The translations under genes and the position numbers were made by a program. Under the pieces are notes generated by a model that was not told the origin of the DNA, made no database searches, and worked only from the letters and a program-made list of their open reading frames with translations. This document shows positions 59,063 through 62,591 of a stretch of DNA of 64,000 nucleotides, one piece after another. The stretch is from Chloroflexota bacterium. Its GTDB lineage: Bacteria > Chloroflexota > Anaerolineae > Aggregatilineales > Ch27. Position 1 is the stretch's first letter, and each line of letters begins with the position of its first letter. The stretch covers positions 1 to 64,000 of the forward strand of contig JAIOAT010000005.1 of NCBI GenBank assembly GCA_019873685.1. The letters are read 5' to 3'.

Positions 59063-60823
59063 ATGACCACACAGTTCAGGCCAACTGATACGATCCGCCA
59101 GGAAGCCCAGGCCCTGGGCCGTAACCTCCACAATTTGCAGGGCGTGTTGCTCTCCCAGCGCGAGATTCTGCGCCAGCGGGGCATGACCCTGCCCTCTGCG
59201 GTCTTCACCCTGCTGGAAGATGCTCAGATCACCATGCAGGACCTGATCAATGGCCTGAAAGAGGAGGAGGAGGCCCTCCGCCAGCTTCGCGCCCTGACCC
59301 AGACCGCCGCCCTGATCAATAGCACCCTCGATCTCGATGAAGTGCTGAGCCAGGCCATGGACACCGTGCTGCGGTTGACTGGCGCCGAGCGGGGTTACCT
59401 GATGCTGCGTAACGAACAGACCGGGGAGATGGAGTACCGCGTTGCCCGCAACCTCGACCGGGAAACCATCGCTCAGGACGCCTTTACCGTCAGCCGCAGC
59501 GTCATCAAGCGCGTAGCTGAGACCGGCGAGCCGGTGGTCACCACTAACGCCCAGGATGATCCCCGTTTTGCCGCCCAGGAGAGCATTGTCTCTTTTGCTC
59601 TGCGCAGTATCCTCTGCGTCCCTCTCAAGAGCAAAGGCCACGTCATCGGCGTGATCTATGCTGATAACCGCATCCGCGCAGGTCTGTTCGGCGACAGCGA
59701 ACTGGCGATGCTCAATGCGTTCGCCAATCAGGCTGCCATCGCCATCGAGAATGCCCGCCTGTTTGAGCGTATCCGTGCTGCCCTGGCCGAGATCAGCGAG
59801 ATCAAGGCATTACTCGACGATGTATTCGCCTCCATCCCCAGCGGCGTCATCGTGACCGACGCCAGCGACCAGATCACGCTGCTCAACGATGCGGCATGTG
59901 ATATCCTGCGCCTGACGCCTGAGCAGGTCATCGGGGGCGTTCTGCCTGCTCGCCTGCCGATGCTGGCCGATAGCCTGAGCCGCGCCCTAGAAGCAACCCG
60001 GCTGGAAAACCGGCGGATGAGCGTGGAGCTGCAGGCCGAAGTAGAAACACGCGGCACCCGCACGCTGAGCGTCAGGCTCAGTCCCCTGCGCGATGCCCGA
60101 CAGTCGATCGAAGGCGTCGCGATTGTCATGGACGATCTGACGGAAGCCCGCCAGCGCGAAGCCCAGTTGAACGTGATCCGGCGTTATCTTCCGCCAGCCA
60201 TGGTTGACAACATTCAGAGCATTGCCCAGCTGGGACTGGGCGGCGTCCGGCGAGACATCACCGTGCTCTATGTAGACATCCGCCTCCCTGGTGTGCTGCT
60301 GGCCGATCTATCTCCGCAGCAGCAACTGGCTGAACTCAACCGCTATGTGGCCCTTTGTTGCGAGCCAATTCATCGCTTTGGCGGCGTGATCGACAAATTC
60401 ATGGGCACGGAGATCATGGCTTTGTTCAACACGCAACTGAACCCCAGCGCTACCCACGCCTGGGATGCAGTGCGCGCTGCGCTGGATATTGCCGCAGCCT
60501 TTGCCGGGTTAGGTGATCCCGATACACCTCCGACTCAGCCGTGTTACGCCATTGGCATCCACAGTGGCATTGCTACCATGGGCAATGTCGGCAGCAAAGT
60601 CCGCCGGGAATTCACGGCTATCGGCGACACGGTAAACCTGGCGCATCGCCTCCTGGACCTGGCAGGTGACAACGAAATACTGGCCAGTCAGGAGGTCTAT
60701 AACGCTTGCGAGGTGCATCTGCCACAGATCACCGAACACGTGCGCACTACCGATCGTGGTGAGATCGAAATCCGCGGACGCCAGCAGCCCGCTCGTATCT
60801 ACCAGTTCGAGTGGGAGGGGTGA
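59063..60823 (+). CDS. GAF-PAS class III nucleotidyl cyclase, C2-like: keeps Asn/Arg, lacks second metal Asp
   Basis: The 586-residue cytoplasmic product has an N-terminal coiled coil (about 1-80), a GAF domain (about 85-230), a PAS domain (about 250-360) and a class III cyclase domain (about 395-580). Active-site residues by family alignment: first metal Asp present (Asp405 in VLYVDIR); second metal Asp replaced by Thr449 in IDKFMGTEIM (normally GD); base-recognition Lys445 and Thr518 present, which suggests ATP in the manner of cyanobacterial cyclases with Lys/Thr; transition-state Asn525 and Arg529 intact in DTVNLAHRL. This is the residue pattern of mammalian C2. A homodimer should not bind two metals normally. 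The ATG at 59063 has a GGGGG site. The next gene encodes the complementary half. Confidence 0.85.
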   Translation: MTTQFRPTDTIRQEAQALGRNLHNLQGVLLSQREILRQRGMTLPSAVFTLLEDAQITMQDLINGLKEEEEALRQLRALTQTAALINSTLDLDEVLSQAMDTVLRLTGAERGYLMLRNEQTGEMEYRVARNLDRETIAQDAFTVSRSVIKRVAETGEPVVTTNAQDDPRFAAQESIVSFALRSILCVPLKSKGHVIGVIYADNRIRAGLFGDSELAMLNAFANQAAIAIENARLFERIRAALAEISEIKALLDDVFASIPSGVIVTDASDQITLLNDAACDILRLTPEQVIGGVLPARLPMLADSLSRALEATRLENRRMSVELQAEVETRGTRTLSVRLSPLRDARQSIEGVAIVMDDLTEARQREAQLNVIRRYLPPAMVDNIQSIAQLGLGGVRRDITVLYVDIRLPGVLLADLSPQQQLAELNRYVALCCEPIHRFGGVIDKFMGTEIMALFNTQLNPSATHAWDAVRAALDIAAAFAGLGDPDTPPTQPCYAIGIHSGIATMGNVGSKVRREFTAIGDTVNLAHRLLDLAGDNEILASQEVYNACEVHLPQITEHVRTTDRGEIEIRGRQQPARIYQFEWEG

Positions 60824-60830
60824 TAGCGGC

Positions 60831-62591
60831 ATGTCAACGCTCTTCGGGACTCAGTCCTTTGCCAGTCCTGGCATCGTTACCGCCGAACGGATCAAAGGCA
60901 TGATCCACGAGCTGGATGGTCTTCTGCGCGCTCAGCGTGCCCTGCTGCAACAGCGCGGCATGAGCTTGCCGCCTGGGGCCTTGCAGGATGTCGCCACCGC
61001 TGAACAGGACATTGAGAAGCTGGCCGCCCACCTGCGGGCGCAACAGATCGAGTTAACCCGGCTACGCGCCCTCGCTGATACCTCGGCACTGATCAACAGC
61101 TCGCTTGGTCTGGACGAGGTCCTTAACCGCGTGATGGACACGGTGATCCGCCTGACTGACGCCGAGCGTGGTTACATCGTGCTGCGCGATGAGCACACCG
61201 GCAGCATGACGGTACGGGTCGCCCGCAACCTTGATCGGGAGACCATCGAGCGCAGTTCGTTTACGGTAAGCCGTAGCGTTGTCAACAGCGTCGCCCAGAC
61301 AGGCGTGCCCGTAGTCACCACCAACGCTCAGAGCGATCCGCGCTTTGCCGAGCAGGAAAGCGTGGTGTCCTATTCTCTGCGCAGTATTCTGTGCGTCCCG
61401 CTCAAAATCAAAGAGGATGTGATCGGGGTAGTGTACGCTGATAACCGCGTTCGCTCCGGTCTGTTCGGTGAGAGCGAGCTTGCGCTTCTGACCGCCTTTG
61501 CTGATCAGGCGGCAGTAGCCATCGAGAACGCCCGCCTGTTCGAACACGTCAGAACCACCCTGGAAGAGGTCACCGAGAACAAGGAACTGCTGGAGAGCGT
61601 GTTTGCCTCGCTCGCCAGCGCGGTGATCACCACCGATTGTGACACCAGAGTGATCATCTGGAACCAGGCGGCGGAACGCATCTTTGGCCTGGAACGCCAG
61701 CAAGTCCTGAGTAGCCCTCTTGCAGATATCCTCCCGGACCTCGGTGCAGAGTTCTACGCAGCGCTGCAGCGTGCCCTCAGCGATGGCCTCAGCTACGCTG
61801 CGGAGCTTGAGCCGGTCCTTGCCGGGCGTGGAAAAGTGGTATTCGCCGTGCGGCTCAGCCCGCTCAAGACCCATGATCAGGGTATCAGTGGGGCAACCAT
61901 CCTTGTTGATGACCTGACCGACATCCGTCGCCGGGAAGCAACGCTGGCCGAAGTGCGGCGGTACCTCCCGCCCGCGATGGTGGAGAACATCCGGGCCATC
62001 GACACCCTTGCCCTCGGCGGGGAAGAGCGCGAGATCAGCATCATCTTCGCTGACGTACGCGGTTTCACCGGCTTCTCCGAGCAACTTGAGCCAGAGGCGC
62101 TGATGACCGTGATCAACCGTTACCTTGAGGTCGCCAGCGACGCCATCCACCTGTACGAAGGCATCATCGACAAGTACATGGGCGATGCAGTGGTTGGCCT
62201 CTACAACACCCAGCTCAACCCTCAGGAAGAAGATCATGCCCTGCGGGCGATCCGCGCTGCGATGAGCATGATCTACGATGTCAAGGTGCTCCACGAACTG
62301 ATGCCGCCCAACGCCCGTTTGTGGTATGGCATCGGCATCGACACCGGCATGGCCGTTCTGGGCAATGTGGGGACCGATGAGCGCAAGGAATTCACGGCCC
62401 TGGGCCAGCCGGTTGCTCACGCCAAACAACTTCAGGAGGCGGCGGAGCGTGGCGAGATCATCATCTCGGAAGCCACCTACCAGCGCGTCCGCGACCGGAT
62501 CGATGCTGAGCCAGTTCAGCGGCCATTCCGTGACGACCCTGGCCTGCACACCGTTTACCGCGTCATCGGCTTCAAACGGCGGAACCGTTAG
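60831..62591 (+). CDS. GAF-PAS class III nucleotidyl cyclase, C1-like: keeps both metal Asps, lacks Asn/Arg
   Basis: The 586-residue product has exactly the same length and domain order as the preceding one and is clearly paralogous through the GAF, PAS and linker regions (for example FTVSRSV and IENARLFE). Metal residues are intact: Asp408 in IIFADVRGFTGF and Asp452 in DKYMGDAVVG. The transition-state pair is lost: the canonical V-N-L-A-x-R-L reads VAHAKQL, giving Ala529 and Gln533. This is the mammalian C1 pattern. The ATG begins seven bases after the upstream stop, with GGGAGGGG as ribosome site, so the two are made together. Catalysis is expected only from the heterodimer. Product identity (cAMP likely) is inference. 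Confidence 0.87.
   Translation: MSTLFGTQSFASPGIVTAERIKGMIHELDGLLRAQRALLQQRGMSLPPGALQDVATAEQDIEKLAAHLRAQQIELTRLRALADTSALINSSLGLDEVLNRVMDTVIRLTDAERGYIVLRDEHTGSMTVRVARNLDRETIERSSFTVSRSVVNSVAQTGVPVVTTNAQSDPRFAEQESVVSYSLRSILCVPLKIKEDVIGVVYADNRVRSGLFGESELALLTAFADQAAVAIENARLFEHVRTTLEEVTENKELLESVFASLASAVITTDCDTRVIIWNQAAERIFGLERQQVLSSPLADILPDLGAEFYAALQRALSDGLSYAAELEPVLAGRGKVVFAVRLSPLKTHDQGISGATILVDDLTDIRRREATLAEVRRYLPPAMVENIRAIDTLALGGEEREISIIFADVRGFTGFSEQLEPEALMTVINRYLEVASDAIHLYEGIIDKYMGDAVVGLYNTQLNPQEEDHALRAIRAAMSMIYDVKVLHELMPPNARLWYGIGIDTGMAVLGNVGTDERKEFTALGQPVAHAKQLQEAAERGEIIISEATYQRVRDRIDAEPVQRPFRDDPGLHTVYRVIGFKRRNR

Follow-up and report, generated by a model that had tools for sequence, protein, structure and literature searches.

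Adjacent genes of Aggregatilineales (Chloroflexota) probably encode the complementary halves of a heterodimeric class III adenylate cyclase

The active sites of class III cyclases form between two domains, with the metals bound by one domain and the Asn and Arg residues, together with the purine-binding residues, contributed by the other. In mammalian membrane adenylyl cyclases (AC1-9) both domains belong to one membrane polypeptide, in which C1 holds the metals and C2 provides Asn and Arg. Soluble adenylyl cyclase (sAC, ADCY10) also consists of complementary C1/C2 halves, arranged as tandem domains of one chain that continues into an ATPase region, and has a Lys/Thr purine pair. Heterodimeric class III cyclases encoded by two genes are represented by the NO-sensing soluble guanylate cyclase alpha/beta and the chytrid RGC/NeoR, which are eukaryotic and GTP-specific. 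RGC1/2 retain all catalytic residues, so that their obligate pairing has another basis (PMC8815786). Bacterial class III adenylate cyclases are described in reviews as homodimerising (PMC9552081; PMC4886424), and the duplication behind animal C1/C2 was placed in early eukaryotes by a recent review (PMC9552081). No bacterial two-gene heterodimeric class III cyclase was found in the literature searched, which is weak evidence, as most subscription papers were outside its scope.

Here we describe two adjacent genes, A and B, from a 64,000-nucleotide stretch of a Chloroflexota genome (the window). With a probability of about 0.88, their products together make up a single class III adenylate cyclase, an obligate heterodimer with A and B as its subunits. 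As in mammalian membrane adenylyl cyclases, the metal-binding residues reside in one partner (B, like C1) and Asn and Arg in the other (A, like C2), in the same alignment columns; unlike in these enzymes, the halves are products of two genes, carry GAF and PAS domains and use a Lys/Thr purine pair. The A-B pair resembles sAC in this purine pair and in having complementary halves, but sAC has two cyclase domains per chain followed by the ATPase region, whereas A and B each consist of a coiled coil, GAF, PAS and a single cyclase domain. What appears to be new, judging by the literature searched, is the bacterial two-gene form of a C1/C2-type heterodimeric class III cyclase; that kind of cyclase itself is already known.

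Both genes are intact open reading frames on the forward strand, encoding 586 amino acids each. The C2-like subunit is encoded by gene A (59063..60823) and comprises a coiled coil, a GAF domain (aa 90-228), a PAS domain (aa 255-364) and a class III cyclase domain (aa 398-575). Its ATG start, chosen in an earlier interpretation of the window made from the letters and open reading frames (the sequence-only reading), agrees with the homologues; the open frame extends farther upstream. The C1-like subunit encoded by gene B (60831..62591) has the same layout, with the GAF domain at aa 94-231, the PAS domain at aa 259-366 and the class III cyclase domain at aa 400-554 in Pfam. The stop codon of A and the ATG of B are 7 nt apart (junction at 60811..60833, forward strand), and the purine-rich GGGAGGGG immediately 5' of the B start is a possible ribosome binding site for B, with coupled translation. 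GAF, PAS and Guanylate_cyc domains were detected in both proteins over the Pfam cut-offs; for Guanylate_cyc (PF00211) the scores are 43.2 bits in A and 52.8 bits in B (cut-off 21.9). Pfam detected no other domains in A or B, and in particular no membrane domain of the mammalian type. The single-chain models (pLDDT 81.9 for A and 85.8 for B) both show the class III cyclase fold, and the top PDB matches of both cyclase models in Foldseek are CyaB, Cya2, and CyaC. An Rfam search revealed no structured RNA near the two genes, and promoter and terminator scans around them gave signals barely above those in shuffled sequence.

The catalytic residues are divided between the two proteins. In A, the first metal position is occupied by Asp405 (60275..60277), replaced by Glu, Asn, Ser or Thr in many relatives, and the second metal Asp is lost, with Thr449 in its place (60407..60409). 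The purine-site Lys445 (60395..60397) and the transition-state residues Asn525 (60635..60637) and Arg529 (60647..60649) are invariant among A-types; the class IIIb-type purine-site residue Thr518 (60614..60616) is Thr or Ser across all of them. In B, the first and second metal residues Asp408 (62052..62054) and Asp452 (62184..62186) are invariant among B-types, and the transition-state Asn and Arg are lost, being replaced by Ala529 (62415..62417) and Gln533 (62427..62429); all these codons are on the forward strand. The spacing is 44 between the metal positions and 4 between the Asn/Arg positions in both proteins, and the four catalytic positions of A and B share alignment columns. For comparison we used rat AC5-C1 and AC2-C2, with letters verified against the PDB chains. 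Thr449, Asn525, and Arg529 of A align with Ser, Asn, and Arg of AC2-C2, whereas Asp408 and Asp452 of B align with the two Asp residues of AC5-C1, and Ala529 and Gln533 with its Thr and His. Neither chain contains the full catalytic set of two Asp, Asn, and Arg, which is complete only across A and B.

At this level the sequence-only reading is borne out. The two adjacent 586-codon genes of shared coiled coil-GAF-PAS-cyclase layout that it described agree with the open reading frames and Pfam domains, the residues and spacings that it listed at the four catalytic places are correct in the translations, and the alignment with mammalian C1/C2 that it proposed does put Thr449, Ala529, and Gln533 in catalytic columns, with A corresponding to C2 and B to C1. 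Class IIIb adenylate cyclases recognise the purine by a Lys and a Thr (or Ser). In the proposed dimer A is the purine-binding half, and all A-types have Lys at the first of these positions and Thr or Ser at the second. Judged from this signature only, the product of A-B is probably cAMP rather than cGMP.

The distribution of the pair was studied in 61 genomes of the same order, and 57 regions were fetched from relatives; the named relatives are metagenome-assembled genomes labelled Aggregatilineales, Ardenticatenia, and Anaerolineae bacteria (Chloroflexota). A and/or B are present in 49 of the 61 genomes, nine others contain one complete solo gene, and three contain neither. These last three (G003, G033, and G048) lack the pair as a unit, even though G033 and G048 have a completeness of 94-96%. 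The two genes occur together at 46 loci, invariably in the same orientation and with A first; each of the three one-sided loci is interrupted by a contig end. The junctions are mostly short or overlapping, many with an overlap of 1 or 4 nt. Comparison of flanking genes across families revealed no gene family common beyond single families and provided no functional clue; hence, the adjacency of A and B itself is what is conserved.

A-type proteins follow the pattern [DENST]-K-[TNSGE]-[TS]-N-R (first metal, Lys, second metal, purine Thr, Asn, and Arg positions). The second metal Asp is missing and Asn and Arg are retained in every A-type. The first Asp is often also lost in other families, being replaced by Glu, Asn, Ser or Thr; its retention in A of the window is a counterpoint to a full half-site split. 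Every full-length B-type retains both Asp residues and lacks Arg, while Asn is still present in ten B-types. The search of the order for reciprocal pairs, of the kind suggested in the sequence-only reading, yielded 46 linked pairs with the same division: both metal Asp residues on the B side, and Asn and Arg on the A side, without exception among full-length copies. The same reading held that a lone gene with a complete site would speak against obligate pairing. Such genes do occur, both in the sister family f3 and beyond the order; however, the complete proteins that they encode branch apart from the A+B clade and are not lone A- or B-types.

In an unbiased scan, all columns of the cyclase domain were ranked by entropy difference, with catalytic sites not specified. 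Among columns conserved in A and variable in B, Asn525 and Arg529 have ranks 1 and 2. Since the reciprocal losses are kept in every full-length pair of seven families and these two residues head the scan, the pattern seen in the sequences is not a matter of chance. When changes are counted along the tree, A has none in the columns of Asn and Arg, against at least 16 (Asn) and 11 (Arg) in B; conversely, B has none in the two Asp columns, against at least six and ten in A. In the solo proteins none of the four catalytic columns changed. The two columns with most changes in B among the 24 that are invariant in A are exactly those of Asn and Arg. Such a pattern in the alignments marks two half-sites maintained by selection, one per protein.

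Because a class III site is shared between domains and the losses are complementary, a complete site is expected only in A-B dimers, once per dimer. In the head-to-tail dimer, B would provide the metal-binding Asp408 and Asp452, and A would provide Lys445 and Thr518 for purine binding and Asn525 and Arg529 for the transition state, forming one working ATP site with B; the mirror-image site, made of the Thr449 side of A and Ala529/Gln533 of B, would be dead. A-A dimers would be inactive owing to the missing second metal Asp. B-B dimers would be inactive or very weak, with Arg missing and Asn mostly missing. The missing Asn also occurs in some mycobacterial cyclases, e.g., Rv1900c (PMC4886424), and, given this and the ten B-types that still have Asn, slight B-B activity is possible. 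Being adjacent and probably co-translated, the genes would keep their products matched. In this lineage the GAF domains of A and B are alike, and they would probably sense a common ligand as a pair; the enzyme probably makes cAMP that is detected by proteins of the CRP family, and the genome encodes six cNMP-binding (CRP-type) domains. It is almost certain that neither protein works without the other, much as with the two halves of animal adenylate cyclase. This was also the core of the sequence-only reading (complementary C1/C2-type halves, an obligate heterodimer with one active and one degenerate site), for which conservation, linkage, trees, and column constraint give strong support at the sequence level.

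The loss of essential residues from each protein could also mean that both are pseudoenzymes, with cyclase activity lost and the pair serving as a GAF/PAS sensor scaffold. This is unlikely, as the surviving residues are complementary and invariant, the two Asp in all B-types and Lys, Asn, and Arg in all A-types. Losses in two pseudoenzymes should be independent, yet among the columns invariant in A it is precisely those of Asn and Arg where B varies most. The same columns bear on a second scenario, in which B is the true enzyme, acting as a weak homodimer, and A is its regulatory pseudocyclase partner. Although B has both metal Asp residues, in family f4 and some others also Asn, and deviations at the Asn position are known from other class III cyclases, Arg is missing from every full-length B and its column has changed at least 11 times in B, never back to Arg. 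In addition, Asn and Arg of A never change, and a purely regulatory A would need none of its Lys, Thr/Ser, Asn, and Arg residues, which makes this scenario very unlikely.

Finally, A and B could each pair with another cyclase and not with each other; a candidate is the third cyclase domain of the genome, which is complete. That explanation has hardly any plausibility, since A is followed by B at all 46 loci despite the reshuffled flanks, and the A and B trees mirror each other, with the third protein on a separate branch. The distances among A proteins and among B proteins correlate at 0.92 over 38 loci, and none of 2000 permutations gave a value as high. We therefore retain the obligate A-B heterodimer as the most probable explanation of the locus.

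If A and B form such a heterodimer, one of its two sites is degenerate. It had been proposed that this dead site could bind a regulator, as the forskolin site does, and we found no support for this suggestion. The columns in which B has lost its catalytic residues belong to the fastest-evolving ones and have no residue common to all families, and hence a conserved forskolin-like ligand is unlikely there. Lys448 of B is retained in all B-types except one, and the Arg column is lost. The bicarbonate site of human sAC involves Lys95 and Arg176, and its switch has Arg176 gripping Asp99 (PMC12250328). Judged by spacing, the column of Arg176 should be the catalytic-Arg column lost in B. As Arg is missing from B at this presumed position, we would not expect a bicarbonate switch of the sAC type in A-B.

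The sensor and catalytic parts of the two proteins have diverged to different extents. In the window, the identity between A and B is 74% in the GAF domains (about 59330-59746 in A and 61110-61523 in B), 38% in PAS, and 33% in the cyclase domain. Within genomes, GAF identity ranges from about 74% (family f1) to 81% (f6), and cyclase-domain identity is 33-40%; the f6 value for GAF exceeds the mean A-A identity between families (54%). In trees built from GAF or PAS alone, A and B are intermixed. In our reading, this mixing does not speak against the A/B split of the cyclase domains; together with the likeness of the sensor parts, it suggests repeated gene conversion, of the sensor part only, or shared constraint. 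Because the GAF domains are alike within a genome, one common ligand for both is more likely than an AND gate. Thus, the two GAF domains probably sense the same ligand as a pair, the PAS domains may differ between A and B, and the earlier proposal of a two-signal AND gate is unsupported. By sequence, the GAF domains of A and B resemble those of PDE5/PDE10. The cyclic-nucleotide motif of GAF domains is NKFDE; as its Lys and Asp read, by eye, Arg and Ser in A and B, we do not propose a cyclic nucleotide as the ligand.

The closest proteins with a complete site are solo coiled coil-GAF-PAS-cyclase proteins of Anaerolineae, which have the same cyclase fold and align with A and B over equal length. 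CyaB of P. aeruginosa, CyaC of Spirulina, and Cya2 also share the fold and are the nearest in PDB by sequence and model. All these proteins differ from A and B, which carry half a site each, in having the complete site in one chain, and are therefore expected to be homodimers. The solo genes of f3 and of 20 near relatives outside the order all encode a complete site, and no second cyclase gene was observed in the fetched flanks of these 20 relatives; the f3 genomes are the nine solo-gene genomes mentioned above, with one gene each at the similarity level searched. The other matches listed from class and phylum searches, which covered sampled genomes and best matches, have both Asp residues, Asn, and Arg; a few best matches elsewhere in the phylum have a different residue at the Lys position. 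The genome of the window encodes one more PF00211 cyclase, the third and only other one found (L093:7040-8644, reverse strand; own-genome contig C7:105060-105581), with the complete site DKDTNR.

In a tree of 98 full-length proteins, built by a quick method with SH-aLRT as the only support measure, the A clade has a support of 99, the B clade 98, and A+B 100, with f3 and class-level solo proteins outside. In the tree of the cyclase domain alone, too, A and B each form a clade. The simplest history starts from a solo coiled coil-GAF-PAS-cyclase homodimer that underwent a single tandem duplication within one order of Anaerolineae, followed by reciprocal loss and vertical inheritance, and the solo complete gene of f3 and of relatives outside the order is likely the ancestral state. 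Family f3, which the trees put outside A+B, probably split before the duplication, although it may instead have reverted to a single gene. The A+B clade is also separate from AC5-C1/AC2-C2, with long branches, so its origin appears to be independent. On the whole, we consider it likely that bacteria have here a natural class III cyclase that is an obligate heterodimer, encoded by two genes and inherited vertically. It would have arisen separately from animal C1/C2, when a solo homodimer was duplicated once and the copies underwent reciprocal loss; a related family still has the homodimeric form, and gene conversion would have preserved the likeness of the sensors during the divergence of the catalytic halves. 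Bacteria thus appear to have made the step from homodimer to heterodimer separately, as two genes. Both the state before this step (the solo complete gene of f3 and outside the order) and the state after it (A+B) are alive, so that the route to an obligate heterodimer is directly testable with small proteins, and the halves of such a two-part cyclase could be controlled separately.

Complementary halves as such are not unique to A-B, as relatives contain single-chain sAC-like proteins (L166:1-1868 and L167:623-2326 on the reverse strand and L168:4140-8891 on the forward strand). In all three, domain 1 has both Asp residues and lacks Asn and Arg, and domain 2 lacks the Asp residues and has Asn and Arg; L166 continues into a P-loop motif, as the sAC layout predicts. 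By these residues they are putative bacterial C1-C2 pseudo-heterodimers in one chain. Their domains fall outside the A+B clade in the tree, again with long branches. Bacteria thus appear to have evolved complementary halves repeatedly, and the two-gene GAF-PAS pair stands as a separate case.

Two smaller observations concern individual families. In one f6 genome (L047, G015:C23:260450-263901), A and B are each split over two frames and the metal positions of A are Asn and Glu; the split frames could be sequencing errors or decay. In several f3 genomes (L038, L045, L056, L065, and L079), a conserved gene of about 150-200 amino acids lies upstream of the solo complete gene on the same strand.
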